NCBI RefSeq assembly: GCF_001610835.1
Contig: NZ_CP011270.1
Coordinates: 3,304,001-3,368,000, forward strand
Source: Planctomyces sp. SH-PL14
GTDB lineage: Bacteria > Planctomycetota > Planctomycetia > Planctomycetales > Planctomycetaceae
Direction of reading: 5' to 3'
Length of the DNA stretch: 64,000 nt
The notes under the pieces are model-generated. The model ran no database searches. It was not told where the DNA came from and saw only the letters and a list, made by a program, of their open reading frames with translations. The position numbers were made by a program, and so were the translations under genes. Positions 18,748 to 59,860 of this stretch are shown here, in pieces. Each line of letters begins with the position of its first letter. Positions within the stretch are counted from its first letter, which is position 1.

Positions 18748-18750
18748 CTA

Positions 18751-19072: not shown

Positions 19073-19121
19073 TTGAGTCGCGAGTTGTCAGTCATCAGTC
19101 GTCAGCGATGGCGGCTGTTGC

Positions 19122-20577: not shown

Positions 20578-20649
20578 GCCTTGATGGTGAAATGGACATC
20601 ATGTCCCGCTTCGAACGGGGCGTTCCAGGTTCGAGTCCTGGTCGAGGCA
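20578..20649 (+). tRNA. tRNA-Arg (anticodon TCG)
   Basis: The acceptor GCCTTGA pairs with TCGAGGC. The anticodon stem TCCCG/CGGGG encloses CTTCGAA. The T-stem CCAGG/CCTGG encloses TTCGAGT. CCA is not encoded. It lies about 100 bases after the EF-Tu-like gene. Confidence 0.88.
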
Positions 20650-20756
20650 CTCAATGCCGTCAGGAGGGATCCTCCGGCGGCGAACCTCCCCGGGGGACGC
20701 GTGTCCCTCGGGAGACTGCGGGTCATCGTTCTTGCTTTCCCGGAAAGGGGGCCACC

Positions 20757-20825
20757 ATGACATCGATATCCAATCGTCCACAGAGGTTGTCCGCGCGGAT
20801 GGTCCGCGACGGCACTGTTTCCTGA
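20757..20825 (+). CDS. Possible 22-residue leader peptide
   Basis: ATG 20757 follows AAAGGGGG at ideal spacing and opens a 22-codon frame (MTSISNRPQRLSARMV...). It stops 46 bases before the next gene's ATG. It may be a translated leader for the 266-residue gene, or an incidental frame with a good ribosome binding site. No similarity is recognised. Confidence 0.35.
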   Translation: MTSISNRPQRLSARMVRDGTVS

Positions 20826-20871
20826 CGTGATTCCCTGCGGAACTCACGTCGACTCTTTGGAGTTCACTCCA

Positions 20872-21672
20872 ATGGACGTGACTGTTCTTCAGCGGCAGTT
20901 CGCCCGCATCGGGGCTCGCGCCCGGGTGCGGACGGTGGATGGCCGCTGGGCCGTCGAGGCGGTGGCGATCGATATCGCCCGCGACCGCGATGGCGAACTG
21001 TTTGATGTGCAGGTCCCTCCCCGCCGGTCGGCGGAGCTCAGCGTGCTCCACCTGGAACCGGCCCGGCGGCACCTGCTGTTGATGTCGCGCGATGGCGGCT
21101 CGGAGCCGCACAAGTTCCTGTGCGGCCACGACGAGCGGCACTGGTTCGTGGCGGCGGTCCCGGAGAACCGGAGCGCCTCGACGGTGGCGACGGCGATGGA
21201 GGCTCTTAAACCGGCCGAGATCGTCGCCCTCCAGTCGCGGCTGCAGGTCCGGCCCAAGGACCGCAATCGGCGGAAGAACGAAGCCTTCCTCCGACAGGGG
21301 GAATGGTTCTTCGTCCGCGAACCGGGACTGATCGTCGATGAGCGACTCGTCCTGACGCGCGAACCGATGCGTCGCGGAGGTGGAAAGCCGCATACGGTCG
21401 ACTTCCTCTACCGCTCCGGCGGGGAGGTGGTCTACGTCTGCCGGCACCGCCCCAACGGTCTGACCCAGGCCCAGCACAACACTCTTCTCTCCCGCAAGCC
21501 GGAAGCGAAGAGCTGGGGCTGGTCGGTCCTGCGGCGGAACCCGTCGGTGTACGTGAAGGGGCGTGTTCGCCATGCGGACCACGCCACCATCGTGCTGGAC
21601 GACTGGCACCGCGTGCTGATGAACACCGAGACGCAGGCAGCCGCGATGCGGCATGTCGCGTTTCTGGACTGA
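20872..21672 (+). CDS. Unrecognised 266-residue protein embedded in the tRNA array
   Basis: The product starts at ATG 20872 after TTTGGAG; a GTG at 20827 is a less likely alternative. It is soluble, basic and rich in Arg, Val and His, with no signal peptide or membrane segment. It reads as mixed alpha/beta with several conserved-looking blocks: GGSEPHKFLCGHDERHWFVA (about 86-105), QVRPKDRNRRKNEAFLRQGEW and a C-terminal ADHATIVLDDWHRVLMN. The Cys/His-containing block could bind a metal. I do not recognise a family. Its place between tRNA-Arg and tRNA-His, with EF-Tu and HNH neighbours, points to an RNA- or translation-linked role, but that is only context. Confidence 0.65.
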   Translation: MDVTVLQRQFARIGARARVRTVDGRWAVEAVAIDIARDRDGELFDVQVPPRRSAELSVLHLEPARRHLLLMSRDGGSEPHKFLCGHDERHWFVAAVPENRSASTVATAMEALKPAEIVALQSRLQVRPKDRNRRKNEAFLRQGEWFFVREPGLIVDERLVLTREPMRRGGGKPHTVDFLYRSGGEVVYVCRHRPNGLTQAQHNTLLSRKPEAKSWGWSVLRRNPSVYVKGRVRHADHATIVLDDWHRVLMNTETQAAAMRHVAFLD

Positions 21673-21781
21673 TCGCACTCGGTCTGGCGGGCGGGCCGGG
21701 GAGGAGTCTCTGAAGTCGGGGCCGCGAGCACGGCCGACCCGCTCCCTGGGCTCCTCTCCCGACCCCGCTCCGCTCCGACAT

Positions 21782-21855
21782 GGTGTTCGTGGTGTAGAGG
21801 TTCTGCACGCCGGCCTGTGACGCCGGAGGAATCGGTTCAATTCCGTTCGAACACC
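21782..21855 (+). tRNA. tRNA-His (anticodon GTG)
   Basis: GTGTTCG pairs with CGAACAC. An extra 5' G at 21782 faces the C discriminator at 21855, the G-1:C73 pair specific for histidine. CCGGC/GCCGG encloses CTGTGAC. CCA is not encoded. It ends 34 bases before the HNH gene. Confidence 0.88.
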
Positions 21856-21889
21856 CTCGACAACACTTTCCAGGAAGTGAGGAAGAATC

Positions 21890-43436: not shown

Positions 43437-45362
43437 CTATCCCTGCTCGTGAATGCTCGAGTCCGGGACCTGCCGGACCTTCTTCGCGATCTTTGCCAGC
43501 GCCCCGCCCGCCGCGATCACCAGCACCTGACCCGGCAACCGCACCAGCGGAACCAACCGCGACGCGAGCGCCTGATCCTTCTCCCCGCTCCCGCCCCACC
43601 ACCCTGCCCGACGCGCCTCCACGCACAGGACAAACAGCCGCCGATGCGGGAAATGCTCCAGCCCCTTCTGCGCCAGCCAAGCGTTCCCCAGCTCCGCCTG
43701 CTGCCGCAGAACCTCCCGCAATGGAGCCAGCTCGTCCCGCGAAAGGTCGTGCGGCTCGAACGTATCCGCCGCAGTCACCATCCCCCGCTCCTTCCGGGCC
43801 GCCGCCGCCTCGACTTCGAAGGCAGCCATGTGCTTTCGGATCACCTCCAGCTCGGCCTGCGCCCCGGTCCGGCGAAAGTGCTCCATCAGCATGTTGCTGG
43901 CGTGCGGAATGACATCGTCCCGGTCGCTCGTGATGACCCGCCGCAACAGCCGGATCCCCTCTCCCGGATCGCGGTCGAGCAGGTGCTGTCCCAGCATCAG
44001 GCTGGCATACACGTGCGTCGGCTGGACCGCCAGGAGCTGCCGGAGGACCGGCTCCGCCGCCGGCACTCCCTCCACGTCGGCAACCATCCGCGCCCGCTCC
44101 CACAGCACCCCCACGTCGAGACTGGTCTCGACGGCATCCACCGGCGCCGACGGAAGATCGGACAGGCGGCGGTTGAGGGTGGAGGAACGCCCATGCCGCC
44201 GACGCCAGTCCGCCAGCAACTCCCTCTTCCAGAAGTTCGAAACCTCCGCCTCGAATTGCCGCTCGTCCGTGCTGAAGAACGCGGCCGCGGCCGTCCCCCG
44301 CGCGGCCCCGGGGAATCCCGCCCGCCGGAAGTCGTCCGCCGAGAACCCCATCGCGCCGACGCGGTCGGAGAAGGAGGGATGGGTGTTCGCCTGGTCCGTC
44401 AGCGCCTGACAGACTTCCGTCATCCACCGCTTGGCCTCCTCGTCGGACGGCGCCTGCCGGAGCGTCTCGTCCATCCGCCGCAGCATGTTGTCCGGAGGCT
44501 CCGCCTGCCGGGCCGCGAGCCGCTGCATCTCGGGCCAGAACTCGTCCCGGAGAACGAAGTCGAGACAATCGATCCGCCACAGCGCCTGGGCCAGGTGCTC
44601 CGAGCCGACCGTCTCCCCCGCCTGCTCGTCCGCCTCATACTCTGCCGCCCGGCTCAGGAGGAACATCCGGGCGTGCAGCCGGGGCCAGAACCAGTTGAGG
44701 CCCCAGATCAGGACTCCCAGGAACTTCCGGATGGTCGCCGACTGCTCCGCCGTCTGGAGCTGCCCGATGACCCGGCCCCACATCTCGTTGAGACCGTACA
44801 GCCAGTGACCGAAGCGGCCATGCTCCCGTGACAGGTGTGCGAACTCATGCGCCAGGACGCCCCGCGCCTCCGCGGGCGACAGCGACGTGAGGAGCGGCCA
44901 TCCGATCAGGAGCGACGGCCGCGACCACCCGAACAGCCCCAGCTTCGGGACACGGTAGACGGCGGCGTTGAAATCGGGCGTGAGCTGAACGCGATGGAAG
45001 TGCCGGCAGCGGATCGACTCGCTCAGCCGGTCCAGCTCCTGAAAGAGTCCGGGGGCGGAGGTCCGCGTCACGACCACCCCTTTGGGAGCGGGAACGCGGA
45101 TGCTCAGGAGGAGCGCGGTCTGGACGAGCCCCAGGGCAAACAGCACCGCCCCCACGATCAGCCAGGCCGCCGGAGCGGGCAGGAGACCGGCTCCTCCGAA
45201 GAGAGCGATCCCTCCCAGGATCAGCAGCGGAATCAGCCATCCGAACAGAACGACGTACCCCGCCACAACCCACAGCACGACCCGCCACCGAAGGGCGCCG
45301 GGCCGATGGGCGTACTTCGCTTCGAGCCGTTGAACGAGCCTGTCGAAGTCCTCGCGATTCAT
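43437..45362 (-). CDS. M48 family zinc metalloprotease with C-terminal repeat region
   Basis: The 641-residue product has two N-terminal membrane segments (about 26-56 and 64-88). The M48 catalytic motif VLAHEFAHLSREH follows (H172, E173, H176), with SRAAEYEADEQAG supplying the third ligand Glu. Another hydrophobic stretch (FLGVLIWGLNWFWPRL) lies between the two, as in HtpX/Ste24 relatives. The C-terminal half (about 400-620) is helical and TPR-like (VLRQLLAVQPTHVYASLMLGQHL). M48 enzymes perform membrane-protein quality control. The gene sits just upstream of a TPR/zinc-ribbon membrane protein on the same strand, 60 bases apart. Confidence 0.92.
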   Translation of the reverse strand: MNREDFDRLVQRLEAKYAHRPGALRWRVVLWVVAGYVVLFGWLIPLLILGGIALFGGAGLLPAPAAWLIVGAVLFALGLVQTALLLSIRVPAPKGVVVTRTSAPGLFQELDRLSESIRCRHFHRVQLTPDFNAAVYRVPKLGLFGWSRPSLLIGWPLLTSLSPAEARGVLAHEFAHLSREHGRFGHWLYGLNEMWGRVIGQLQTAEQSATIRKFLGVLIWGLNWFWPRLHARMFLLSRAAEYEADEQAGETVGSEHLAQALWRIDCLDFVLRDEFWPEMQRLAARQAEPPDNMLRRMDETLRQAPSDEEAKRWMTEVCQALTDQANTHPSFSDRVGAMGFSADDFRRAGFPGAARGTAAAAFFSTDERQFEAEVSNFWKRELLADWRRRHGRSSTLNRRLSDLPSAPVDAVETSLDVGVLWERARMVADVEGVPAAEPVLRQLLAVQPTHVYASLMLGQHLLDRDPGEGIRLLRRVITSDRDDVIPHASNMLMEHFRRTGAQAELEVIRKHMAAFEVEAAAARKERGMVTAADTFEPHDLSRDELAPLREVLRQQAELGNAWLAQKGLEHFPHRRLFVLCVEARRAGWWGGSGEKDQALASRLVPLVRLPGQVLVIAAGGALAKIAKKVRQVPDSSIHEQG

Positions 45363-45422
45363 GGGCGCCCGTGGAGCGTTCTTCGTCGTCAGTTCTCAGT
45401 TGTCCATGTCCAACACACCCAG

Positions 45423-48047
45423 TCAGGTGCCCGATTCCTTCTTCGTCTCGTTCTCCGCTGCGGCCTTCTTGCTCGCATCGGTCGTTGCCCCCTTGCTGGC
45501 CGGGAACACGCTCCGGACAAGCTGGTACGGCGGAACGCTGGTGACGTTCAGCTCCGCCGCCAGCTCGCCCGCCTGGGGCGCGAGCGCCGGGAACTGCTGC
45601 GCCACGGCGCAGAGGAACAGGAGCTTCTGGGACGGCTCGAGCGACAGGTCCCGGACCGCCTCGAAATCCGGCGGATCGAGCGTCGTCAGCATCGCCGCCG
45701 CCATCCGCTCCTCGGCCCCGCGGGTCTTGAACCGCTCGCACGCCTTCGCGAGCCATCGTTCCGACTCGACGTCGTCATGGGCGAGGTGATACGCGACCGA
45801 CAGCGCCAGAGCGTCCCAGGGCATTTCGTCCTTGGGAGCCAGGAGCGGATCGGACGCGACCTTCCCCGGCTGGCCGTTCGCCAGGTGGAACGCGGCATGA
45901 TACCGCTGCACGACGGTATCGTTCCCCGGCGGCGGGGCCTGCTGGAACTCCGTGAAGTTCGCCCCGCCGTAGAGGATGTGCAGCCGCAGCATCTCGACGA
46001 CCGGAGCGATGCTGGAGAGGATCGCCTGCCGCTGGGCCTTCCAGGCATCCAGCTCCTGCTGGGCCTCCGCGAGGCGGCCCGTCGAGACATAGGCGTCGAT
46101 GAGGCCGAAGAGCGCCGCGATGTCCATCGGCGTACTGGCCAGCGTCGCCTTGCTCTCTTCGACGATCTTCGCCGACTCCCCGCTTCCGAGGCGGGCCAGG
46201 GTGATCATCCGCTGCGACAGATCCGGATCCAGCCCCTTGGCGTTCGCCACCTGAAGCTCCGTCAGGGCCGAGGGCCAGTCCCCCTCGATCGCCGCCTGGA
46301 ATCCGAGGCCGAAGTGCGGCCACGGGTTCTCGGGATCGGCGTCCCGGGCCTTCGTCATGAACTCCCGCCGGATCTTAGCCTCCCCCTCGAAGCGGGAGCG
46401 GAGGTACAGGAGCATCGCGCTATCCGGCTCCGCCTCGAGGCGGCGGTCGTACTCGGTCCGCAGGTCGTCGATCCGTCCCTGCGACTCGAGCAGGTTCTGG
46501 TACGTCCGGTGCCAGTTGACTTCGACCGGTTTGCGGTCGAGCCCCGGTTTCAGGAACGTCTCGCCGCGGTCCTGCTTCTTGAGCGTCGTCAGCCGCTCTT
46601 CGTATTCGTGAAACAGCATCGCGTCCTCCGGCCGCATCGGCAGGTGCGTCTCCAGGAACGCGAGCGCATCGTCCGGCGCCGTCACGTGCTGGATGAGCTG
46701 CTGCGGGTCGGCGTCGACGACGATGATCCCCGATTTCGTCACGAACCCGTCCCGCTTCTTGATCGGCAGCGAGTCGGGGGGATCGACGAACGGGTAATCG
46801 ATGTGCGGGCGGGCCACGAACGTCTGGCCGATGAGGTGCGTCCAGGTCGGCGGCGTCGGGTTGCGGGCGTAGTGGTACTGCATCTCGATCAGCCCGGCGG
46901 TCCCGGCAACGTTGACCACCCACACCGGCTTGCTTCCCCAGCGGCTCCAGTACGGGGCCTCCATCGTGACGTTGTAGGCCGCCTGGACCGGCCCGCTGAC
47001 GTTGACCTGGTGGGCCCCCTCGGGAAGCGTGACGGTCCCCTGCTTCGCGACTTCGAACGGCGGTCCGTTGTCGACCTGGACCGTGACGGGCTTCGTCAGC
47101 CCGCTCACAATGTGGAGCGTTCGATTGCGCCGGATCTGATCGTTGTAGAGCGCCATCCCGGTGGCAAAGAGGATCCCCACGAGCCCCAGGAACGCCCCCC
47201 ACTTCTGGCCTGACGAGTAGCCGCGGCTCCAGGGGTTGAAGATCCCCAGCCAGCTCTCCTCCCGGCTCGGGAGAATGCTCTCGCGGGCCTTCAGCTTCTT
47301 CTCAGAGACCTGCACCATCTTGCGGACGCCGTGGAGCTGCGCCGCGTCGGGGTATTCGTTGAGGAGATGGCGGAAGAGCTCAAGCGCCTTTTCGTGCTGG
47401 TTCCGCTGCTGGTAGAGAGTCGCCAGCGTCTCCAGCGGCCCGAGTGAATAGACCTGGCCGGCCCCCGGCGCTTCGAGGTGGCTCAGGAGACGCCGCGCCT
47501 CCTCCAGCTTCCCCTCGTTCATCCGGGCGAAGGCGACACCGACGCGGGCCTCGGGGAGCTCCGGCTCCAATCCATGCGCCTCGGCGTAAAGCGCGGCCGC
47601 GAGATCGTACCGGCCCACCTGATCGAGATGGTTCGCCAGCCCCGCCCGCAGTCCGGCGTCCTGAGGGAACCGCTCCAGGAGCTCCTTGCGGAAGGCGTCG
47701 GACTCATCGTGCTGATGGTACCCCAGCATCCGGGCGTGCGCGTCGAGGGCGTTGTCGACCGTCGGCTCGGACTGGTAGCGGTCCTTCCCCTCGGAGACGG
47801 TGAGCTGGCTGGCGATCGCGAACTCGTCCGCCTTGGCGGCGTAGTGCCGGCGGCAGGAGGGGCAGTCATCGATGATTCGCTTGCGGCCCAGAGGGATGAT
47901 CGGGATGAAGATGACCACGAACCACAGCCGGGTGTCGTAGCTGGCGAGATCCCCGACGTGCCCGCAGCTGCGGCATTGCCCGCGGCGGACGCTCCGGTTC
48001 CTCTTGCCATAGTAGTGCGTTCCAATTCCGTTGACGGTCGTCGGCAC
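45423..48047 (-). CDS. Membrane-anchored TPR protein with N-terminal zinc ribbon
   Basis: The 874-residue product begins with a zinc ribbon (CRSCGHVG at about 23-30 and CPSCRRHY at about 62-69) that encloses a hydrophobic stretch, WFVVIFIPIIPLGRKRI, typical of zinc-ribbon membrane proteins. TPR-like helices follow (about 110-250), then a membrane segment (KWGAFLGLVGILFATGMAL, about 282-300), a beta-rich region, and further TPR units to the end (about 470-820), closing with a Lys/Glu-rich tail. A scaffolding function is likely. Its neighbour, an M48 protease, also carries TPR-like repeats, so the two may form one membrane complex (inference). Confidence 0.75.
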   Translation of the reverse strand: MPTTVNGIGTHYYGKRNRSVRRGQCRSCGHVGDLASYDTRLWFVVIFIPIIPLGRKRIIDDCPSCRRHYAAKADEFAIASQLTVSEGKDRYQSEPTVDNALDAHARMLGYHQHDESDAFRKELLERFPQDAGLRAGLANHLDQVGRYDLAAALYAEAHGLEPELPEARVGVAFARMNEGKLEEARRLLSHLEAPGAGQVYSLGPLETLATLYQQRNQHEKALELFRHLLNEYPDAAQLHGVRKMVQVSEKKLKARESILPSREESWLGIFNPWSRGYSSGQKWGAFLGLVGILFATGMALYNDQIRRNRTLHIVSGLTKPVTVQVDNGPPFEVAKQGTVTLPEGAHQVNVSGPVQAAYNVTMEAPYWSRWGSKPVWVVNVAGTAGLIEMQYHYARNPTPPTWTHLIGQTFVARPHIDYPFVDPPDSLPIKKRDGFVTKSGIIVVDADPQQLIQHVTAPDDALAFLETHLPMRPEDAMLFHEYEERLTTLKKQDRGETFLKPGLDRKPVEVNWHRTYQNLLESQGRIDDLRTEYDRRLEAEPDSAMLLYLRSRFEGEAKIRREFMTKARDADPENPWPHFGLGFQAAIEGDWPSALTELQVANAKGLDPDLSQRMITLARLGSGESAKIVEESKATLASTPMDIAALFGLIDAYVSTGRLAEAQQELDAWKAQRQAILSSIAPVVEMLRLHILYGGANFTEFQQAPPPGNDTVVQRYHAAFHLANGQPGKVASDPLLAPKDEMPWDALALSVAYHLAHDDVESERWLAKACERFKTRGAEERMAAAMLTTLDPPDFEAVRDLSLEPSQKLLFLCAVAQQFPALAPQAGELAAELNVTSVPPYQLVRSVFPASKGATTDASKKAAAENETKKESGT

Positions 48048-48197: not shown

Positions 48198-50012
48198 CTA
48201 GGCGCCGTAACCGAGGCGGGCGCGCAGCGGGCCCAGGACTTCGTCGGCAATCGCACGTACGGCTGGCGTGAAGTTTTCGGACGTCCTCCAGACCCCCGCC
48301 TGGCCCCGCCGACGGAACTGGAGCGGACCGGTCTGCTGGTACTTCTGGAAGGCAAACCGTTCGACGACCGATCGCGCGACCTCCGCGTCGACGGGGATCG
48401 ACAGCAGTTCGCCGCAGGCCACGAGCCCGGGGACGGGGTCGCGCAGGAGCTCTTCATAGGTCAGCCGGAGCCTCTGCTCCAGCGGCGTGTTCTCGAACGT
48501 TTTGACCGCCAGGAGCGTGGTGTCGCGGATGTGCTCCGCGGACCGCCGCACCGCGGCCAGGTCCGGCTCGCCGGCGTTCGTCCGGTCCTCCGCGTCCGAG
48601 AAGGACTCGTTCCAGCTCCCCGGCTTCTGGAGATCGAGGTACGAGTCGAGCACGTCGAAGGGGTCCCGCACCAGCAGGATCACCCGGCCGAGCGGAAAGA
48701 TCGCCCGCAGCCAGGGGTAAAGCTCGGGCGTGTTGACCTCTTTGACGACCAGGGCGTGCCGGCCGAACTGCGGAAAGCGGGCCCGGGCCATATCGAAGAA
48801 CAGCCGCCGGAGCCCCTCCACCCACACCGGCTGATGCCGCCGCACGAAGAACGACGCTTTCCGGTCGAGTTCCCCGGGCTCGTCTTCGACGTGCTTGAGG
48901 AACCGCCCGAAGTACGGTTCGTGCCATCGCCGGATCCGCGGGAGGTCCCCCAGCATCTCCGCCAGCCACGTCGATCCGGTCCGGCCGCAGCCGATGATCC
49001 AGGCGAGCCGCTCCTCGGATGGTGCTGCCGCGGACGACTCGGCTTCGCCCCGCCGGACGCTCTCGATCAGCCCCCGCGCGCGATGCTCGTAGAGGTGTCC
49101 GGCGAGCGTGATCCGCCGGGCCCGCTCCACCTTTTCGATCCGTCGCCCTTCGTCGCGGAGCGCTTCCCGGAGCGCCGCCAACGCGGAGTCAGCGTCGTCG
49201 AAGTGGTAGACGCTGTCGCCGAAGATCCGCCGGACCTCGGGGCGGTCGGGGCCGGTCAGGAGAGCGGCCTGACCGAAGGCGGTCACCTCGAACACCCGCG
49301 GACTGGGGGAGTCGGCCGGCTGCTCCGAGGTCCGGAACAGGTTCATGGTGACCCGCGACTGAGAGTAGATCTCCCACTTCTCGATCGTTTCGATCGTCCG
49401 CTGCCGGACCTCGGTACAGCCGAACGATTCAAACGGCTCGGTCCCTCCCACGATCTTCCCCGCCACCAGGAACCGCAGCCCCTCCCGCTCGCAGAACTCC
49501 GCCATCCGCAGGAGCATCGGCAGCCGGTCCTCAAATACGGTTCCGAGGAACGAGAGGTCGTAGGGGGGACGCGGGAAGCGGGGGACGTCCGGCAGGGGGA
49601 GGGTTGCGGTCGGCAGGTACTCCGCGCCGCGGACCGCGGAGCGGATCTCGTTCGTGAAGCGATAGGTATAGAGCGACTCGACGTCCGGAATCGTCTCGTA
49701 CGGGTCGTCCGTGGCGACCAGGACCGTGGGGATCCCGGCCCGCCGCAGGGAGAGCGGAATCCGGGCCCGGGCCCCGCGGAAATACAGGCCGTCGACAAAG
49801 ACGACGCTGTCGATCTCGTTGGCGACGTCGAGCGCCGTCCCCAGGATGTCGTTACCGACGGCGTCGGGACTCAGGACCTTGAGGAACGAGAACGTCGGAT
49901 ACGGGACGACCCGGACCCCGTCCTGCTCCAGCGCCACGCGGTATCCGTCCCAGACATCGCGCGTCGAGAAGTTGGCCGACCCGGCGACGAGAAGCACATT
50001 CGCGAACGCCAC
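48198..50012 (-). CDS. Fusion of CgeB-like glycosyltransferase and sulfotransferase
   Basis: The 604-residue product has two parts. Residues about 1-310 resemble CgeB/DUF3880-type glycosyltransferases (FANVLLVAGSANFSTRD..., DLSFLGTVFEDRLPMLLRMAEF, SRVTMNLFRTSEQ, SPRVFEVTAFGQAALLTG). Residues about 335-604 are a PAPS-dependent sulfotransferase: the 5'-phosphosulfate loop IGCGRTGSTWLAEML (about 339-353) and 3'-phosphate element LVRDPFDVLDSYLDL. The protein is probably cytoplasmic and may both glycosylate and sulfate one acceptor. It begins 12 bases after a 66-residue Tat-leader peptide gene, which makes that peptide a candidate acceptor (inference). Domain order and fusion are unusual. Confidence 0.85.
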   Translation of the reverse strand: MAFANVLLVAGSANFSTRDVWDGYRVALEQDGVRVVPYPTFSFLKVLSPDAVGNDILGTALDVANEIDSVVFVDGLYFRGARARIPLSLRRAGIPTVLVATDDPYETIPDVESLYTYRFTNEIRSAVRGAEYLPTATLPLPDVPRFPRPPYDLSFLGTVFEDRLPMLLRMAEFCEREGLRFLVAGKIVGGTEPFESFGCTEVRQRTIETIEKWEIYSQSRVTMNLFRTSEQPADSPSPRVFEVTAFGQAALLTGPDRPEVRRIFGDSVYHFDDADSALAALREALRDEGRRIEKVERARRITLAGHLYEHRARGLIESVRRGEAESSAAAPSEERLAWIIGCGRTGSTWLAEMLGDLPRIRRWHEPYFGRFLKHVEDEPGELDRKASFFVRRHQPVWVEGLRRLFFDMARARFPQFGRHALVVKEVNTPELYPWLRAIFPLGRVILLVRDPFDVLDSYLDLQKPGSWNESFSDAEDRTNAGEPDLAAVRRSAEHIRDTTLLAVKTFENTPLEQRLRLTYEELLRDPVPGLVACGELLSIPVDAEVARSVVERFAFQKYQQTGPLQFRRRGQAGVWRTSENFTPAVRAIADEVLGPLRARLGYGA

Positions 50013-50024
50013 GAACGGCTCTCC

Positions 50025-50225
50025 TTACGGATTCATATACGGGTAGGGCATCGCCCCCATCCCGTTCTCGCGGACGGCGAGAGGCTGGATCACCGGCCGC
50101 GCCAGGGCGTCGGTCTTCAAGGTGATCAGTGCAACAGCACTGGCTGTGGAAAGCGCGGCGGTGGAGTGTTGAAGAAACGCCCGTCGCGTCACCTTGGACT
50201 TCTCGTCGGGATCGAAGGTTGCCAC
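50025..50225 (-). CDS. Very short Tat-leader peptide
   Basis: The 66-residue product starts at GTG 50225 after GGGGAG. A twin-arginine motif (TRRAFLQHS, about residues 13-21), a hydrophobic stretch and a TDALA cleavage site leave a mature chain of only about 24 residues ending GAMPYPYMNP. Such short Tat substrates are rare, because Tat usually exports folded proteins. It may be a precursor modified by the fused glycosyl/sulfotransferase directly downstream, its tyrosines being possible sulfate acceptors, or a non-functional signal remnant. No known family is recognised. Confidence 0.6.
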   Translation of the reverse strand: MATFDPDEKSKVTRRAFLQHSTAALSTASAVALITLKTDALARPVIQPLAVRENGMGAMPYPYMNP

Positions 50226-50367: not shown

Positions 50368-50979
50368 TCAGGGAACATCGCGGAGGTGTTCGTAGGAAGC
50401 CTCGTACGGCTTAGGCATCCCCCCCCCGCCACCCGCAAGTCCCAGAACGGAAACCGTTCGATGTGCTCCTGTGCCGGGAACCTCGAAGTCGATCGACTGA
50501 TCAGCGCCAAGCGAATGTTCGACCGCGGTCGCAGCAGTCCTCATGATCACCTTGAATTCGTTCTTCCCGGCGTTGAAGAACCGATACAAAGCCTTCGGTG
50601 TCGTGGTCGTGTTCACCTGGGGCAGCATTGAGATGACAAGCTGTTCGGTCGCGGCCGACGCCTGTCTCACCTTGAGTCGCCCTGGGCGAATCTCGGCGTC
50701 TGGCTGAATGATCTCGTAAACTCCCTCAGCGTTACCGGAAGGGACAACTTTCAGGCCGATCGCCGCGTCCTTGATGAGTAGATCGATGGAACAGCCGTTG
50801 AGTATGGAGACCAGAATCGGGTTGCCCATAGCGTTGTTGGCGGTCGTAACATCGAACGGAGCATCCCCGGTGTTGAAGATCCGATAACGGGCTCCCTCGC
50901 GTCCGAAGACGAGAGGGATTGTCGTGTTGGTGCGGAACCGACCACCCCGCGGTCCCTCGACGAGCTTACGAGCAGGCAT
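50368..50979 (-). CDS. Hypothetical protein with two similar beta-rich halves
   Basis: The 203-residue product starts at ATG 50979 (MPARKLVEG), with TGAGGA upstream; other ATGs lie at 50988 and further. Two related halves are seen: IPLVFGREGARYRIFNTGDAPFDVTTANNA (about 18-47) and TPKALYRFFNAGKNEFKVIMRTAATAV (about 124-150), each followed by a strand-rich stretch. It ends with a five-glycine run and PKPYEASYEHLRDVP. No signal peptide is present. It could be a small structural or binding protein; no family is recognised. It is transcribed in the same direction as the peptide and fusion genes. Confidence 0.6.
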   Translation of the reverse strand: MPARKLVEGPRGGRFRTNTTIPLVFGREGARYRIFNTGDAPFDVTTANNAMGNPILVSILNGCSIDLLIKDAAIGLKVVPSGNAEGVYEIIQPDAEIRPGRLKVRQASAATEQLVISMLPQVNTTTTPKALYRFFNAGKNEFKVIMRTAATAVEHSLGADQSIDFEVPGTGAHRTVSVLGLAGGGGGMPKPYEASYEHLRDVP

Positions 50980-51067: not shown

Positions 51068-54000
51068 TTACTCAACAAACGGCTTTAGCGGGCTGCTCAT
51101 CGGCTGGACTGGCTTTGCCCGCCAGACGCGAATCTCCCCAATCAGGCCTCCCGAGACAATCGTCTGGCCGTCCGCCTCGGTCGCCACCGAAAAGACCTGG
51201 CGAAAGTGCCCCCGCAGCGGCGCAATCAGCTCGCCCGACCGAATGTCCCACAGCTTCAACTGAAAGTCCCGGCCGGCCGAGACCAGGGTCGTGCTGTGCG
51301 GCAGGACCGCGAGCCCGTGAATCCGTCCCGTGTGCCCCTTGATCTTCGCCCGGGTCTGGCCCCTCGCAGGATCCCAGAACAGCAGGTCCCCCGCCCCCGT
51401 CGCAATCGCCAGCGTGCCGTCCGGGCAGTAGGCCAGGGCCGTCGGAGCCTCGTCCAGCGGGATCACCTCGCGGGTCGTTCCACTCCCCACGTCCACCAGC
51501 TCCACCGTCCGGGCGACGCGGGCCACGGCCACCGTTCGGTCGTCCGCCGCCAGAGCGATCGCCGCGACCTCCGACGGCCCCGCGGCAATCTCCCGCACAG
51601 GCTTCGACCAGTCCCCCGCGTCGTAGAGCACCAGCGGCCCCCCCCGCCCCGCGCACCCGAACAACCGCCCCGACGGGGAGAAGCCGATCGCCACCGCCCC
51701 AGTCGGCTGCGTCGGCAACTCCCGCTCGATCTGGAGCGTCTCGGCGTTCCAGAGCGTCACGACCGGCTTGTTCCAGACTGTCGCCAGCAGCCCTCCTCTC
51801 GGCTGGAGCACGACGAGGCGCCCCGTCCGCTCCGGATCGCCCGGAAGCGGGGTCCAGCGTCCGGTTTTCAGGTCCCACACCCGCATCTCGGCGGAGTCGT
51901 AGGCCGCCACGACCCGGTGGCCGTCCGGAAGACACTGGAGGCTGCGGACGGGGGGCGAGTCGGTCCGGTCCTCCTCCTCCGGGTCGGGCTGTTCGCCGTA
52001 CCACAGGACCTCCGGGACATCCAGCCCTTCGGGACGGAGGATCGTCACGCTGCCGTCGCCGCTGCCGAGGACCAGGGCGCGGCCGTCCACCGACGCCGCC
52101 AGGGTCCCCACCGTCAGTCCGTGGGTATCGTGCACCTGCTGTTCCTGACGGCTGTCGATGTCGTAGAAGTGCATCTGCCCGTCATTCGCCGCCACCGCCA
52201 CGATGTGCGTCCCGGCCACGAATTCCAGGGCGTCCATCCGGCCCCAGGCCATCTGGCCGGAGAGAACCTCATCGGTCGAAAGCGAGCGCGTCGTCAGGAC
52301 GCCGTTGAAGTCCCCCGCCGCGATCAGCGTTCCATCCCGCGAGACGGCCAGGCACCGGAGGTTCGGACGCAGCGTGAACTGGCGGATTGGAACGGGGACC
52401 TCTCCCGTTCCCTGACCGACGGCCGCCTCGACGTCCCACACGCGGACCTGGCCCGCCTCCGTGGCGACGAAGAGCGTCCCGCCGTCCGCGGAAAAGCGGG
52501 CATCGGAAGGAACGGCCTGCTGTCCGGTCGGGATCTCGGCCAGCTTGTTCCCGGTCGCGGCCTCCCACAGCCGCACCGCCCCCTTGTTGCCCACCGACAG
52601 CACCCGGCGGCCGTCCGGCGAGAAGCGGACGCGGCGGATCCGCGGGCCATGCCGCATCTCCCTCACCATCCGCTCGCCAGCCAGCGGTTCCCACAGCCGG
52701 ACGAAGCCGTCCTTCCCTCCCGTCGCCAGCCGCGCGTCGGTCGGAGAGAACTCGACCGATTGAAACGGCTGCTCGGGGTCTCCCGCCAGGGTCCGGATCA
52801 GGTCGTTGGTCCGGGAGTCCCACACGCGGACTTCCCCTCCCTCGCCGATCGCGGCGGAGAGGCCGCCATCCCGCGAAAGGGCCACCGCCTCCACGGCGCC
52901 GCCGGCGTTGGCCACGGAGTGGAGCGGGCGGAGGACCGTGTCGAAGTAGCCCCAGGCGAACCCGCGGAAGCGGGACATCTCGGGATCGGCGGCGATGCGG
53001 GAGAGGATGTCCCGCACCCCCAGGATGTCGCCGTTGTCGAGATGGTTCGCCGCCAGGTTCAGCCACGAGTGGTACAGCGACAGCCGGGCCGCCGACGCGT
53101 TCGCCTCCGCCTTCCGCCAGAAGGTCGAGACGCCGATCAACCCGGCGGCCAGGCTCAGGATCGTGCTCGCCAGGAGCCCGGAGATCGCCGGCCGCTTGCG
53201 GCACCATCGCCAGGTCCGTTCCACACGGGAGATCGGCCGGGAGCGGATCGGCTCTCCGGAGGAGAAACGGACCAGTTCGTCCGCCAGGTCCTGGGCGGTC
53301 GCGAACCGCTTGTCCGGATCGCGCTCGAGGCACTTGAGGCAGATCGTCTCCAGGTCCCGGGGGATGCGGATGTCGAAGGTCCGGGGGGAGGGGGGATCGT
53401 CCGAGACCTTCTGGAACAGGACGGCGCTGTTGTTTCCGCGAAACGGAGTCTCGCCGGTTAGCATCTCGAAGAGCGTCACGCCGAGGGCATAGATGTCCGA
53501 CCGCGCGTCGGTCGCCTGGGTCCGCCCTCCCGCCTGTTCGGGGGACATGTAGCGGGCGGTGCCGACCACCTGCCCCTCGGGGGGCTGCAGCGGGTCGAAG
53601 GCGGCGGTCTTGGCGATCCCGAAGTCGGCGATGTAGGGCTCGCCCGCCTTGTCCAGGAGGATGTTGGCGGGCTTGATGTCCCGGTGCACGACGCCGTGCT
53701 GATGGGCGAAGTGCAGGGCGCGGGCCACGGGGAGGAGCAGCTGGACGCAGCGGACGATCGACGGCCGGCCGGCCGTGAGGAAGTCGCGGAGCGTGAGCCC
53801 GTCAATCAGCTCGCTGGCGATGTAGACCTGTCCGGTCTCCTCCCCGACCTCGAAGACCGAGACGATGTTCGGATGCTGCAGGCGGGCCGCCGTCCGGGCC
53901 TCGAAGAGGAGGTTCTCCGAATCGGTCCCGGCCGCCCGCGGCAGCTTGAGCGCCACCTCGCGGCCGAGGTGGTCGTCGCTCGCCAGCCAGACCTCGCCGA

Positions 54001-54214
54001 ACCCGCCCTGCCCGAGGCGTTTGAGCAGGCGGAAGTGCGCGACCTGCATCGACTCGATACTGGCCGTGCCGTGATAGGTGGCGGTCCGGCCTTCGTCCGG
54101 CTCGTCGCAGACGGGACAGGTGGAGCGGGTCTGCGTCACCGACGGATCGAACGGAAGCTCCCGGGAGGCCGCATCGGGCAGAGGCCGGTCGCACTTGGGA
54201 CATCGACTGACCAT
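51068..54214 (-). CDS. Serine/threonine protein kinase with zinc ribbon, membrane segment and WD40 propeller
   Basis: The 1048-residue product starts at ATG 54214 (MVSRCPKC), with GGAGGG seven bases upstream; a longer start at 54274 lacks this. A zinc ribbon uses C5, C8, C33 and C36. The Hanks kinase domain has GQGGFGEV (68-75), K90, HRDIKPAN (177-184), DFG (197-199) and a C-lobe to about 320. One membrane segment (LLASTILSLAAGLIGVSTFW) lies near 340-360. The outside region has about 10-14 WD40 repeats (DSRTNDLIRTLAGDPEQ ... LKLWDIRSGELIAPLRGH). This architecture is abundant in planctomycetes, linking an external or periplasmic propeller with intracellular kinase signalling. Substrates are unknown. 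Confidence 0.95.
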   Translation of the reverse strand: MVSRCPKCDRPLPDAASRELPFDPSVTQTRSTCPVCDEPDEGRTATYHGTASIESMQVAHFRLLKRLGQGGFGEVWLASDDHLGREVALKLPRAAGTDSENLLFEARTAARLQHPNIVSVFEVGEETGQVYIASELIDGLTLRDFLTAGRPSIVRCVQLLLPVARALHFAHQHGVVHRDIKPANILLDKAGEPYIADFGIAKTAAFDPLQPPEGQVVGTARYMSPEQAGGRTQATDARSDIYALGVTLFEMLTGETPFRGNNSAVLFQKVSDDPPSPRTFDIRIPRDLETICLKCLERDPDKRFATAQDLADELVRFSSGEPIRSRPISRVERTWRWCRKRPAISGLLASTILSLAAGLIGVSTFWRKAEANASAARLSLYHSWLNLAANHLDNGDILGVRDILSRIAADPEMSRFRGFAWGYFDTVLRPLHSVANAGGAVEAVALSRDGGLSAAIGEGGEVRVWDSRTNDLIRTLAGDPEQPFQSVEFSPTDARLATGGKDGFVRLWEPLAGERMVREMRHGPRIRRVRFSPDGRRVLSVGNKGAVRLWEAATGNKLAEIPTGQQAVPSDARFSADGGTLFVATEAGQVRVWDVEAAVGQGTGEVPVPIRQFTLRPNLRCLAVSRDGTLIAAGDFNGVLTTRSLSTDEVLSGQMAWGRMDALEFVAGTHIVAVAANDGQMHFYDIDSRQEQQVHDTHGLTVGTLAASVDGRALVLGSGDGSVTILRPEGLDVPEVLWYGEQPDPEEEDRTDSPPVRSLQCLPDGHRVVAAYDSAEMRVWDLKTGRWTPLPGDPERTGRLVVLQPRGGLLATVWNKPVVTLWNAETLQIERELPTQPTGAVAIGFSPSGRLFGCAGRGGPLVLYDAGDWSKPVREIAAGPSEVAAIALAADDRTVAVARVARTVELVDVGSGTTREVIPLDEAPTALAYCPDGTLAIATGAGDLLFWDPARGQTRAKIKGHTGRIHGLAVLPHSTTLVSAGRDFQLKLWDIRSGELIAPLRGHFRQVFSVATEADGQTIVSGGLIGEIRVWRAKPVQPMSSPLKPFVE

Positions 54215-54614
54215 GACCCGCCCTCCAGACCAGCCTCCGGATTCGATGGCCGTCTCGAATCGAAAGCCGCGCACAGGATCGTTGGGGGCCCGCCCGTCGG
54301 CCCGCCGGCATCAGCCTTTCCACTCGCTCCGGTCCTGTCAACCCCGTGTCCCGTTGAATCCGCTGCTGCCGCTGGTGGATCGGGGGGCCGGAACGGGGCC
54401 GGACGGTATCTGCGCGGCAAGGAGGCGAGGGGCCAGTGAACTCCGATGCGCCCGCGCCGGGTGACGCGCGGGGAGCCCACCGACGAGCGCAAACCCCGTT
54501 CGAAATCGCAACACGACGGTCGCAGGGATTTGACTGGTTGTAGCGACTGAGCGGCCTCCCGGCGGGCACGATGCAGAGCCGCAACATCCGGAATTTTCGT
54601 TGCACGATGGCAGC

Positions 54615-55954: not shown

Positions 55955-57055
55955 GTGAGACGTGTGACGCCCGCGTTCCTGACAATGATCATGCTGCTCG
56001 TCGTGGGCGGCCTGGTGGTTCTGTATGTCGGCAAGCGCCTCCTGGCGAAGCCGGAAGCCCCGCCGCCGGCGCTCCAGACGGTTCCGATGGCGATCCAGGA
56101 CCTGCCGGCCGGCACGGTCATCACCTCGGAGCACCTCGCCAAGGGGCGAATCCTGTCTTCCAAGCTCGTTCCCGAGAACGCGCTGACCAACGACCCCCTC
56201 ATCGGCCGCGTCGTGAAGAACCCGATCACGCACGCCACGCCGATCAAGACGACCGACCTCTACCTCCCGAACGAGTTCCCGCCGCTGGTCCTCGGCGCCG
56301 GGATGGAAGCGATGACGTTCCCCACCGGGACCGCCTCCATGACCGTCGACGGGATCGTCAAGACGGGGGACCGGGTCAACATCCAGTTCACCCCCGCCAG
56401 CGCTCCGGATATGAATGAGACCGGCGGCTACACCATGACCCTCATGAAGGGGATCAAGGTCCTGGCGATGAACCGCAACCTGGCCGGCGCCCCGGCCCGC
56501 GGCCGGGCCACCGGCTCGATGGTCGTCGAGGTTTCTCCGGAGCAGGCCAAGATCCTGCTGCTCTGCAAGGACAAGGGGCAGCTCAACATGACCTACACGA
56601 CCGAGACCGAGAACAGCGGCCGGATCGTCCTCAAGGACTCGGAAAAGGCGACCCTGGCCGAGATCCTGAACGTTTCGCCTCCGGACAAGCCCATCGCTCC
56701 GATCGTGACCGAGCTCTACTCGGGCAACGGCCGCCGGCTGCACACGTTCAAGGACGGTCTCCGGGCCGACCGGTACGGCATCGAGCGGTTCGACTACAAC
56801 CGCAACCGCGGATTCGGCGGGGGCTTCGGCGACTTCGGCGGCGGCAACGTCGCCCCGGTTCCGGATGAGAACCAGGTCTTCGGCTCCGGCAGCGGAAACT
56901 ACCTGTCGGTCCCGGCGGGCGCCCAGGGGGGAGCCGGCAATGGCGGATTCGGCGGCAATGGCGGCATGGGTGGCAACAACGGATTCGGCGGCAACGCCGG
57001 ATTCGGCGGAGCCGGAAACGGAGCCGCCGCCGCCCGTCCTGAAGGCGGAAACTGA
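55955..57055 (+). CDS. cpaB: Flp pilus assembly protein CpaB/RcpC
   Basis: The 366-residue product starts at GTG 55955 after GGAG. One N-terminal membrane helix (about 8-28) is followed by an SAF domain (TVPMAIQDLPAGTVITSEHLAKGRIL, about 45-75) and the RcpC-type C-terminal fold (MTVDGIVKTGDRVNIQF, about 118-134; VEVSPEQAKILLLCKDKG). The C-terminal 100 residues are Gly/Asn/Phe-rich with GGFGG- and GNGG-type repeats, unusual for CpaB and possibly a flexible periplasmic tether. CpaB helps the secretin complex of the Flp pilus. No secretin gene (cpaC) is in the window. Confidence 0.88.
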   Translation: MRRVTPAFLTMIMLLVVGGLVVLYVGKRLLAKPEAPPPALQTVPMAIQDLPAGTVITSEHLAKGRILSSKLVPENALTNDPLIGRVVKNPITHATPIKTTDLYLPNEFPPLVLGAGMEAMTFPTGTASMTVDGIVKTGDRVNIQFTPASAPDMNETGGYTMTLMKGIKVLAMNRNLAGAPARGRATGSMVVEVSPEQAKILLLCKDKGQLNMTYTTETENSGRIVLKDSEKATLAEILNVSPPDKPIAPIVTELYSGNGRRLHTFKDGLRADRYGIERFDYNRNRGFGGGFGDFGGGNVAPVPDENQVFGSGSGNYLSVPAGAQGGAGNGGFGGNGGMGGNNGFGGNAGFGGAGNGAAAARPEGGN

Positions 57056-57083
57056 GATTGGCTGAGACACGAGACCTCCGGGA

Positions 57084-57116
57084 GCCGAAGAGTCGATGGG
57101 ACTCTTCGGCTTTCGG
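57084..57116 (+). terminator. Stem-loop between cpaB and the TadG-like gene
   Basis: GCCGAAGAGTC pairs perfectly with GACTCTTCGGC over the loop GATGG and is followed by TTTCGG. The T run is weak, so it may attenuate rather than end transcription inside the tad operon. A second smaller CCGAAGG/CCTTCGG hairpin follows near 57161-57180. Confidence 0.5.
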
Positions 57117-57249
57117 CCTCGACGGCCCCGCCTCGATGGCTCCCGATTGAACGACACACCCCGAAGGATGGCCCCTTCGGACTCTTCGGCAGGGATTCGC
57201 TGATCCACCTGTCTTCCCGCTTCCTCGTCCCCCTGATCGCGAAGCCGCC

Positions 57250-58485
57250 GTGCTCCGACGCCGAACAACTCGCCCAGCCGCCTCGCGGACGAACCGTCGC
57301 GGGAGCATGATCCCCGCGCTCGCCTTCGCGATGCTCGTGGTCGGCCTGGCGATCGCGCTCGTGGTCGACCGGCTGTGGCTCGACGCGGCCCGCGTCGAAC
57401 TGACCGCCGCGGCCGAGGCGGCCGCCCTCGCGGCCGCCGGACGGGTGGCCGACGACGCGCTCCTGAAGCCCGACGCCGACCTCCAGCCGGTCCTCGAAGC
57501 GGCCCGCCAGAAGGCGGTCGAAGTCGCCGCCGGCAACCAGGCCGCCGGATCCCCGGTCACGCTCAACCCGGCCGAGGAGGGAGACATCCGCTTCGGCCGG
57601 CTCATCCGGGACGGAAAGACCGGCAAGCCGCTCTTCCTGGAAACGGAGTCCCGCCCGACCTCCGTCGTGGTCTTCGCGGAGCGGACCCACGGCCGGGGGA
57701 ATCCGGTCGCGCTCTTCTTCCGCCAGCTTACCGGACAATCGGCCGGCAACCTGATCGTGTCGGCCGAGGCGACGATCGACAACCGGATCGCCGGCATCCG
57801 TCCCTACCAGGGAGCCAACACTCCGGCGATCCCCCTCGCCCTCCTCGACAAGCACCTCGATCCCAAGCGGCTCGACACCTGGACGCTCCAGATCGACGGC
57901 CGCGCCGGCTCGGACGACTTCGGATTCGACGCCGCGACCGGCGAAGTGACTCCCGGAGGAGACGGCATCCCCGAGATGCTGATCTACGGCGCGCCGCAGC
58001 AGGCCAAGGAAGAAGACGTCCAGAAGGCCAACTGCCATTTGGCGGACATCGGCACGGGACTCCAGCCGGACGCGGTCGCCCGCCAGTTCGACGAAGGCTG
58101 GAGCCACGAGGACCTCGCGGATTTCGGCGATGAACTCCGGACCGACGAAGGGCCGCAGTCGCTCGACTCGAACGCGATCCTCACCGATGCCGAGACGACC
58201 TCGCTCGAAGGACTCGTCGGCCAGGCCCGGATCTGCCTCCTGTATGCGAACCCGCGGTCGGTCGGGAGCACCGGCGAGTGCAAGATCGAGGCGACCCGCC
58301 TCGTCGCGGTCCGGATCCTGAACGTCCGCCCGGCCACCAAGAAGTCGGTCGAGATTCTCGTCCAGCCCGCCGTCGTCACGACCCGCACGGCGATCCTGTC
58401 CGAGCCCGACCCCGCCTGGAGCCCCGATCCCGGCGTCTCCTACGACACGAACCCGTACATCTACAAGCTGTTCCTCACGCAGTGA
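57250..58485 (+). CDS. TadG-like pilus assembly protein
   Basis: The 411-residue product starts at GTG. A basic N-terminus and one hydrophobic helix (MIPALAFAMLVVGLAIALVVDRLWLDAARVEL, about residues 18-49) end in the Asp/Arg pattern of Tad/TadG (putative Flp pilus-assembly) proteins, where the helix is followed by AAEAAALAAAGR. The rest is periplasmic and mixed alpha/beta, with Cys residues near 259 and 329. TadG-like members carry von Willebrand or related domains in other bacteria; I cannot confirm one here. It is co-oriented with the rest of the tad genes, but a stem-loop precedes it. Confidence 0.75.
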   Translation: MLRRRTTRPAASRTNRRGSMIPALAFAMLVVGLAIALVVDRLWLDAARVELTAAAEAAALAAAGRVADDALLKPDADLQPVLEAARQKAVEVAAGNQAAGSPVTLNPAEEGDIRFGRLIRDGKTGKPLFLETESRPTSVVVFAERTHGRGNPVALFFRQLTGQSAGNLIVSAEATIDNRIAGIRPYQGANTPAIPLALLDKHLDPKRLDTWTLQIDGRAGSDDFGFDAATGEVTPGGDGIPEMLIYGAPQQAKEEDVQKANCHLADIGTGLQPDAVARQFDEGWSHEDLADFGDELRTDEGPQSLDSNAILTDAETTSLEGLVGQARICLLYANPRSVGSTGECKIEATRLVAVRILNVRPATKKSVEILVQPAVVTTRTAILSEPDPAWSPDPGVSYDTNPYIYKLFLTQ

Positions 58486-58537
58486 GCGCGGGAACACGAT
58501 CGCATTGCGCCCGCCTTCCACCGCAAGGTTTTCCCTC

Positions 58538-59860
58538 ATGGTCACCGGAACCGAGAACCGCCGCAGCTTCCAGCAGCTCAAGACGAAGCTGCACCGCCAG
58601 ATCGTGGACGTGATCGACATGTCCAAGGCGGGGGAGATCGGCCAGGAGGAGTTCCGCAAGCAGCTCCGCTCGCTGGCCAACCACCTCGTCACGCGGCCGG
58701 AGGTGAACCTCGCCGGGCGGGACAAGGACCTGATGGTCCAGGAGCTGATGGACGAGATCTACGGGTTCGGCCCGATCCAGGAGGTGATGGACGACCCCGA
58801 GGTGAGCGACGTCCTGGTCAACGGCGCCGACACGGTCTTCGTGGAACGGAACGGTCTCCTCGAAAAGACCGACATCAAGTTCGCCGATGACGAGCACCTG
58901 CTGCAGTTCATCCAGCGGCTCGTCGGCCGCGCCGGGCGGCGTATCGACGAAACGACCCCGATGGTCGACGCCAAGCTGGCGGACGGCTCGCGTCTCCACG
59001 CGGTCATCCCGCCGCTCGCCCTCCGCGGACCGACCCTCTCGATCCGGCGGTTCAAGAACAAGATCGTCCAGCTCGAGGACATGGTCCGGACCGGGACGCT
59101 GGCTCCCGAGATGTCGGACTTCCTGGTCCAGGCGGTCCGCGGCCGGATGAACATCCTGCTGTCGGGCGGTACCGGCGCCGGCAAGACCACGATGCTCAAC
59201 AACCTGAGCCGCTTCATCCCGGCTTCCGAGCGGGTCGTCACGATCGAAGAAACGGCCGAACTCCAGCTCCAGCAGGCGGACGTCGTGGGCCTCGAGACCC
59301 GCGTGCCGAACGTCGAAGGGAAGGGGCTCGTGACCCCCCGCGACCTGCTCCGCAACTCACTGCGTATGCGTCCGGACCGGATCATCGTCGGGGAAGCCCG
59401 CGGCGGCGAAGTCCTCGACATGCTCCAGGCGATGAACACCGGCCACGACGGCTCGATGAGCACCGTCCACGCCAACGACACCCGCGACGCGCTCTCCCGC
59501 CTCGAGCTGATGATCGCCCTCTCGGGGGCGGAGCTGCCGACCCGCGTCACCCGCCAGTACATCGCGACCGCCCTGCAGATCTTCGTCCACGTCCAGCGCC
59601 TCCCGACCGGGGAGCGGAAGATCATGCGGATCTCCGAACTCGCCGGCGTGACCGATGGCGAGTTCGACCTGGAAGACATCTTCGTCTACCGCATGGCGGG
59701 GACGGACGTGCACGGCCGGACCATCGGCTCGTTCTACGCCACGGGGTACGAGCCGCAGTGCCTGCGGCGGATGAGCACCCGCGGCTACGAACTTCCCGCC
59801 CGTCTGTTCCAGGCCCGCGAACTGCGGACCGGCGGCGAATACCGCCCCGTGGGACTGTGA
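58538..59860 (+). CDS. cpaF: Flp pilus ATPase CpaF/TadA
   Basis: The 440-residue product starts at ATG 58538. A GSPII_E/CpaF ATPase is seen: an N-terminal domain with YGFGPIQEVMDDPEVSDVLVNG (about 76-98), Walker A GGTGAGKTTM (about 209-218), VVTIEETAELQLQ (Asp box) and a Walker B-like RPDRIIVGEARGGEVLDMLQAMNTGHDGSMSTVHAN block (about 278-313). It powers pilin polymerisation from the cytoplasmic side with TadB and TadC. The gene lies 52 bases after the TadG-like gene and 79 before tadB. All key residues are present. Confidence 0.95.
   Translation: MVTGTENRRSFQQLKTKLHRQIVDVIDMSKAGEIGQEEFRKQLRSLANHLVTRPEVNLAGRDKDLMVQELMDEIYGFGPIQEVMDDPEVSDVLVNGADTVFVERNGLLEKTDIKFADDEHLLQFIQRLVGRAGRRIDETTPMVDAKLADGSRLHAVIPPLALRGPTLSIRRFKNKIVQLEDMVRTGTLAPEMSDFLVQAVRGRMNILLSGGTGAGKTTMLNNLSRFIPASERVVTIEETAELQLQQADVVGLETRVPNVEGKGLVTPRDLLRNSLRMRPDRIIVGEARGGEVLDMLQAMNTGHDGSMSTVHANDTRDALSRLELMIALSGAELPTRVTRQYIATALQIFVHVQRLPTGERKIMRISELAGVTDGEFDLEDIFVYRMAGTDVHGRTIGSFYATGYEPQCLRRMSTRGYELPARLFQARELRTGGEYRPVGL

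Follow-up and report, generated by a model that had tools for sequence, protein, structure and literature searches.

A planctomycete gene set joining a glycosyltransferase-sulfotransferase fusion to a Tat-leader peptide with two invariant tail tyrosines

What does an enzyme that carries a glycosyltransferase and a sulfotransferase in a single chain modify, and is the 66-residue Tat-leader peptide encoded just upstream of it the substrate? The locus that raises this question lies in the window (the whole 64,000-nt stretch of DNA analyzed) of a host genome assembled as one 8.44-Mb contig (G000). An earlier note had proposed that the two genes could be a pair forming a new type of modified, exported peptide system. 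The two do co-occur across genomes, and their co-occurrence, also where they are unlinked, supports a functional link between them; the notion of a pair is too narrow, as an all-β repeat protein accompanies them and so, in many cases, does an orthologous WD40 kinase. The reading we favor, at a probability of about 0.55, is that the locus is a gene set for one modified peptide whose Y-x-Y tail would be altered by the fusion enzyme and which would be exported by Tat. It is based on four observations: the presence of the genes, the fold families of the two enzyme halves, the conservation of the Y-x-Y motif and co-occurrence, even when the genes are unlinked. A literature search found no published description of the peptide-fusion gene set.

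All four genes run in one direction on the minus strand, in the order kinase, all-β repeat protein, Tat peptide and fusion enzyme. The fusion gene had been placed 12 bases downstream of the peptide gene, and both ORFs are indeed found with this spacing: the gap between peptide stop and fusion start (50013..50024, minus strand) has the sequence GGAGAGCCGTTC directly after the TAA stop of the peptide, and an AAGGAG ribosome-binding-like site overlaps that stop. The same 12-nt gap recurs in loci L019, L020 and L025, and elsewhere the spacing ranges from 3 to about 190 nt. By ORF reading the peptide relatives are located upstream of the fusion, with one found elsewhere (genome G004).

The peptide gene (50025..50225, minus strand, GTG start) encodes 66 residues, which read as a twin-arginine motif (RRAFL at residues 14-18, with RR at 14-15) followed by a hydrophobic stretch and ALA at residues 40-42. 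Predicted cleavage at ALA leaves 24 residues (43-66) with the C-terminal end MPYPYMNP, in agreement with the earlier description of a Tat leader and a mature part of about 24 residues ending PYPYMNP. In an alignment of 16 peptides, the window peptide included, the only invariant residues are R14, R15, F17, D39 (an Asp following the hydrophobic stretch), Y61 and Y63. The Tat motif RRxF[LIV] is present in all 16, nine match the TIGR01409 Tat signal model at E 0.01 or better (the window peptide scores 15.6, slightly under the 16.7 cut-off), and TatC is found in the host genome. The AxA cleavage motif is absent from some of the 16, and on this reading of their sequences some of those peptides may remain membrane-anchored. 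TIGR02811 (formate dehydrogenase region TAT target) resembles the peptide in being a 66-position model with a Tat leader, and six of the 16 match it weakly (best E 0.0013); the window peptide, however, scores 13.9 bits where the cut-off is 48.45, the match spans residues 7-37 in the leader only, and the gene neighborhood differs.

The mature part is held constant at two positions only. Y61 and Y63, which delimit the YPY of the window peptide (residues 61-63; 50037..50045, minus strand) and supply 2 of the 6 invariant columns (n=16), are its sole invariant residues, and the remainder of the mature part drifts. The tails read MPYPYMNP, MPYPYHGG, MPYPYHMPPT, MPYPYVGA, LPYAYHEGPR and IPYMYGEAGP; SPYAYVDGGS, SPYAYHDEE and onward, TAYTYV, HGYTYAGGVP and IPYTYNDVAP (twice); and TYLYSNGVV, VYSYT, HYSYIPD and NYDYDGGQ. 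Residues preceding the tail tyrosines are not reliably acidic in these homologues; typical animal TPST sites have acidic residues before the tyrosine (PMC9372746). In one homologue (L055, genome G121), whose gene lies upstream of the fusion, SPYAYH is followed by a long acidic, glycine-rich extension.

Codon changes that are mostly silent, together with a control on short ORFs, place the peptide beyond chance, and by these sequence comparisons it is a real gene under purifying selection. Between Thalassoglobus neptunius (L036) and a locus of the same genus (L057), 60 codons show 25 silent and 8 residue-changing differences (random expectation about 75% non-silent), and all 8 residue changes lie outside the last 15 residues. 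L030 and L031, a closer pair, differ by 8 silent changes and 1 non-silent one. The control covered 863 kb of sequence (the window plus loci that overlap one another), in which 87 distinct short ORFs contain an RR motif; the 16 of them that carry a Y-x-Y tail are exactly these 16 peptides. A chance ORF or a pseudogene is thereby rejected. Decayed pseudogenes of the peptide were also looked for in the relatives and none was seen, the frames being open; the single match row with a stop (G182) extends past a natural end at ...TAYTYV.

The fusion enzyme (48198..50012, minus strand, 604 residues, GTG start) was identified by Pfam, a structure model and fold searches, and its two halves, which had been read from the letters of the sequence, are borne out by Pfam scores above curated cut-offs. 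Residues 1-327 (49032..50012, minus strand) form a complete GT-B glycosyltransferase fold, matching PimA (2gej) with a VIA-align Z of 26.0 over 309 residues at an rmsd of 3.2, and contain Glyco_trans_1_2 (PF13524) at residues 175-316 (E 7e-18; 65.3 bits, cut-off 25). The N-terminal half thus shares a domain family and the GT-B fold with PF13524 and GT4-type glycosyltransferases such as PimA; the fusion differs from the PimA-type enzymes in carrying a C-terminal sulfotransferase. This second half (residues 330-604; 48198..49025, minus strand) was assigned by Pfam, Foldseek and invariant residues, and matches Sulfotransfer_3 (PF13469; E 3e-12, 47.6 bits, cut-off 27) and Sulfotransfer_1 (PF00685; E 2e-10, 40.8 bits, cut-off 22), both over residues 337-594. 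It has a 5'-PSB motif (GCGRTGST), an invariant HEP and a 3'-PB motif (RDPFDVLDS), so arranged that the PAPS motifs enclose a Glu between the 5'-PSB Arg and the 3'-PB Ser. R344, E365 and S457 are invariant across 13 sulfotransferase rows and are general sulfotransferase features; by analogy, E365 of the HEP motif is a candidate catalytic base. An APS kinase is found in the host genome.

Relatives of the fusion were found at 19 loci, labeled as planctomycetes; among these are Thalassoglobus neptunius, strain K23_9 and several Planctomycetaceae MAGs. One fusion-bearing MAG carries the label Candidatus Kuenenia, although by coordinates it corresponds to G140, a genome of the family to which the window belongs. 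Among 18 aligned homologues PF13524 is present in 18 and a sulfotransferase Pfam domain in 14, the other four rows holding the glycosyltransferase half only (L038, cut by its contig, and three Rhodopirellula/Stieleria proteins). At the Rhodopirellula/Stieleria loci L039-L042 (about 8000-10400) the lone glycosyltransferase homologue adjoins a convergent, separate sulfotransferase gene, and no Tat peptide was seen near it. This pattern suggests that the glycosyltransferase family may have its origin in glycan work. A distant fusion homologue of 40% identity (L037) lies on a 14.9-kb contig where no such peptide is present.

The sulfate acceptor may be tyrosine or a sugar, because fold ranks TPST-1 first and sequence profiles rank other sulfotransferases first. 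The structure model of the fusion has a pLDDT of 84.6 and a pTM of 0.61, and on account of the latter the arrangement of the two halves is uncertain. For the whole model the first Foldseek match is human TPST-1 with bound peptide (5wri_A; TM-score by target 0.57, E 2.3e-8), with GT-B proteins close behind, and tick TPST and TPST-2 are among the best 50 matches. By sequence profile, the sulfotransferase half is nearest to retinol dehydratase (1e-9), polyketide-synthase sulfotransferases (3e-7) and SULTs (2e-6 and weaker), with NoeE matching 6 of 13 members weakly (best E 0.011). NoeE sulfates a sugar, and to our knowledge neither NoeE nor retinol dehydratase nor the SULTs are peptide enzymes or are fused to a glycosyltransferase. 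TPST-1 is thus the best solved-structure match to the model, yet the sequence similarity of TPST chains to the sulfotransferase half is weak (profile E 0.3-0.65). The TPST-1 alignment covers profile positions 9-130, from 5'-PSB to 3'-PB (E 0.4-0.6 over an equal-length range), and with the first 138 residues of the half polyketide-synthase sulfotransferases again score best, at E 0.02-0.04, and TPST 0.4-0.6. An outright identity of this half with TPST was dropped, since sequence profiles favor other sulfotransferases. We know of no animal TPST that carries a glycosyltransferase.

The distribution of the genes ties peptide and fusion together beyond their adjacency. Searches covered a family set of 170 genomes and an overlapping class sample of 397, scoring some of the first-look candidates (for the peptide up to 35 per genome in the family set and 15 in the class sample), so that absences are not proofs. 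In the family set the fusion is present in 15 genomes, the full-length peptide (E below 1e-15) in 13 and the repeat protein in 13. Fusion and peptide occur together in 13 genomes, the fusion by itself in 2, the peptide by itself in none and neither in 155 (Fisher p 1e-17, kinship among genomes ignored); for fusion and repeat protein the corresponding numbers are 12, 3, 1 and 154. In the class sample, most of whose fusion-positive genomes are the same as those of the family set, the full-length peptide is found in 12 of 14 fusion-positive genomes and in 0 of the 383 others. The repeat protein is found there in 13 genomes (one of them, G324, by a weak match of 2e-4) and together with the fusion in 11. 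One of the 12 genomes with both fusion and peptide, G400, belongs to another family (f5), and its coordinates match strain K23_9.

In three genomes the genes lie apart. The fusion of G004, at 3.58 Mb, is 1.84 Mb away from the peptide, which sits with the kinase and the repeat protein at 1.74 Mb, and in G179 and G183 peptide and fusion lie together with the repeat protein elsewhere. The association among fusion, peptide and repeat protein is therefore more than one of neighborhood, as co-presence persists when the genes are unlinked. The peptide model was built mostly from neighbors of the fusion and is biased toward finding peptides beside it; this bias is countered by its recovery of the distant copy in G004 and of no full-length peptide in the 155 fusion-negative genomes.

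The fusion does not occur regularly without the peptide. The two fusion-positive family genomes in which no full-length peptide was found (G100 and G072) have fusions cut at residues 157 and 277, and the repeat protein was not found in them either. In G100 (L058) a truncated kinase runs into the cut end of the fusion, and at both loci (L058 and L059, the latter from G072) the cut fusion adjoins a truncated or inverted module kinase; these cases look like deletion or MAG misassembly. The fusion of G094 starts at base 481 of its contig, which makes the missing repeat protein there uninformative, and G071 (L113 8899-9525) has the repeat protein without the fusion or a full-length peptide. Peptide matches above E 1e-6 cover the leader or part of the peptide, nearly all within longer ORFs. 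Three are short ORFs, of which that in G087 is the start of a longer protein at a contig end and those in G181 (73 residues) and G020 (114 residues) were excluded on match range alone (7-42 and 2-24). A match in G439 (4e-7, leader only, in a 370-residue ORF) was also left out of the counts.

The repeat protein (50368..50979, minus strand, 203 residues) is encoded in an ORF open to 51078, its MPARK start having been chosen by comparison. By eye it contains 2-3 copies of a unit of about 90 residues with the motifs RxGRF and YRxFNSG, and its structure model is all β (pLDDT 77.7). No family in Pfam, NCBIfam or PHROGs covers it, these searches giving weak scattered hits only. Several homologues start MAIRSGRF or MPIRSGRF, and a signal peptide is not evident by eye. 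Its fold matches are middling: PirA (Z 8.2), 9i0y (7.4), 7a02 (6.9), 9t3p (6.8), 8pdz (5.7) and cupins. The likeness to Ena endospore appendage subunits and jelly rolls (Z 5.7-7.4) falls in the range of a common arrangement, for which reason an identity as an Ena spore appendage was not adopted, and the sequence search returned no Ena chain. An AlgF-like identity, for which Pfam gave hits in 2 of 11 members (E as low as 0.016) and the PDB one match at E 1.5, was set aside as too weak.

The fourth gene (51068..54274, minus strand) encodes a protein of 1068 residues in which Pfam and hydrophobicity place a Ser/Thr kinase, one hydrophobic segment (about residues 364-382) and a WD40 propeller. An orthologous kinase is present in most loci with enough sequence, several contigs being too short to tell. 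In a tree that also includes 11 other kinases (7 being own-genome paralogues), the 10 module-locus kinases form one group (support 100/99, recovered in 200 of 200 bootstrap trees); long branches are numerous in it, and the ends of the retrieved sequence truncate some of the paralogue ORFs. Over about 900-1085 positions the nine other locus kinases match the window kinase at 35-49%; its best-scoring own-genome paralogue reaches 28%. Eight of the ten, including that of G004, stand in module order, one is inverted beside the module (L021), and one, in L059, adjoins the truncated fusion of G072. In L024 (G017), L036 and L057 the kinase is not adjacent to the peptide. In all ten the most hydrophobic 19-residue stretch (mean 1.6-2.5) falls between kinase domain and WD40, and this stretch after the kinase domain suggests that the propeller is probably outside the cell.

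We infer from these arrangements that the peptide is the substrate of the fusion. The peptide would be synthesized with its Tat leader, and the fusion enzyme would act on the C-terminal Y-x-Y tail in the cytoplasm, the site of PAPS and nucleotide sugars. A tail tyrosine could gain either a sulfate or a sugar; alternatively, a sugar could be attached first and be sulfated by the second half. Export by Tat, a carrier of cargo finished in the cytoplasm, would come next, and removal of the leader would yield a decorated peptide of about 24 residues, a candidate RiPP. Most likely the β-repeat protein would bind the peptide or present it to the enzyme, and the WD40 kinase would sense the product or control the pathway. 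The export route, the modified residue and these two roles are the conjectural parts of the scheme.

Several other accounts of the same genes were weighed. The fusion might instead make a sulfated glycan for the repeat protein or a cell-surface polymer, with the peptide in an accessory role such as that of a Tat hitch-hiking adaptor which binds and exports the repeat protein. We consider this rather unlikely, although the repeat protein shows no signal peptide by eye and is as tightly co-present as the peptide (for peptide and repeat protein, 12 family genomes have both, 1 and 1 a single one and 156 neither). The weak NoeE similarity of the sulfotransferase half is also consistent with glycan synthesis, as are the Rhodopirellula/Stieleria relatives, which lie near genes that by eye resemble glycan enzymes and beside a separate sulfotransferase without the peptide. 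However, in G179 and G183 the fusion stays with the peptide and not with the repeat protein, and adaptor binding alone leaves two invariant tyrosines beside a sulfotransferase unexplained. That the genes are chance neighbors in a conserved stretch, with no common function, would fit their usual adjacency and is highly improbable, given that they still occur together in genomes in which they are not linked. Besides close relatives, moreover, no other family recurs at a fixed place in the compared loci, and the upstream genes differ in kind among the five loci scanned: Flp-pilus genes in the window, a gene of anthranilate-synthase type in L019, one of no family in L020, a glycosidase-like protein in L035 and a sugar-type ABC importer in L055.

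The kinase invites a further reading by analogy with sulfated peptide hormones and their receptor kinases, namely that the module's transmembrane kinase, through its propeller, reads the decorated peptide as a signal from outside the cell. The separate grouping of the locus kinases, the hydrophobic stretch common to all ten and the retention of kinase, repeat protein and peptide together in G004, away from the fusion, argue for it; yet such kinases are common (53 matches in the host genome at E 1e-30 or better, the window kinase included), three loci lack the adjacency to the peptide, and the propeller, its outward position being inferred, could read something else. We regard a signal-receptor relation as unlikely. 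A peptide-hormone circuit in which the single fused enzyme both glycosylates and sulfates the Y-x-Y tail, the peptide is exported by Tat because it has to be completed in the cytoplasm and is read by a dedicated one-TM kinase with an outward WD40 propeller, and the repeat protein acts as presenter or partner, is in our view quite doubtful.

The favored reading, of a peptide modified on its tail and exported by Tat, has its closest parallel in RaxX of Xanthomonas, a 60-residue precursor encoded beside a sulfotransferase and modified in the cytoplasm before export, for which bacterial tyrosine sulfation is documented (PMC9372746; PMC6637879). With RaxX/RaxST/RaxAB the module shares the placement of a gene for a short precursor next to one for a sulfotransferase. 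The leader is of the twin-arginine type here, in contrast to a double-glycine leader and a type I system there; the sulfotransferase is fused to a glycosyltransferase, unlike RaxST; a repeat protein and a kinase are added; and RaxX and the window peptide have no likeness recognizable by eye. In the proposed account the module would work like RaxX/RaxST, yet it is not a member of that system because the leader differs. No type I secretion genes (raxA/raxB-like) were seen among the neighbors scanned in the window; the flanks of other loci, scanned in part and with many genes unannotated, yielded one sugar-type ABC importer (L055). RaxST homologues outside Xanthomonas are reported without raxX (PMC6637879), and animal TPST is described as a Golgi membrane enzyme (PMC9372746). 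Here a sulfotransferase stands beside a conserved candidate substrate in whose mature part tyrosines alone are constant, which makes the question of sulfation directly testable. Three features would each be unusual: the union of a glycosyltransferase and a sulfotransferase in a single chain, the use of Tat for so short a peptide (about 24 residues), and an adjoining orthologous transmembrane kinase.

The surroundings of the module include several other gene groups. Downstream (43437-48047, minus strand) are genes for a zinc-ribbon/TPR protein (874 residues) and an M48-type peptidase (641 residues), which have no counterparts at the same place in the other loci compared. Upstream and divergent from the module are genes of Flp-pilus type (55955-59860, plus strand), among them a CpaB/RcpC-like gene (55955-57055) and a T2SSE ATPase (58505-59860), and a TadE/G-like gene adjoins the kinase cluster of G004 (L112 11368-12873). 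A link of the module to Flp/Tad pilus genes was not adopted, none being present among the upstream genes scanned in L019, L020, L035 and L055. Further away in the window, at 18272-21856 on the plus strand, eight tRNA genes are clustered in the order Glu, Gln, Glu, Leu, Met, Leu, Arg and His.
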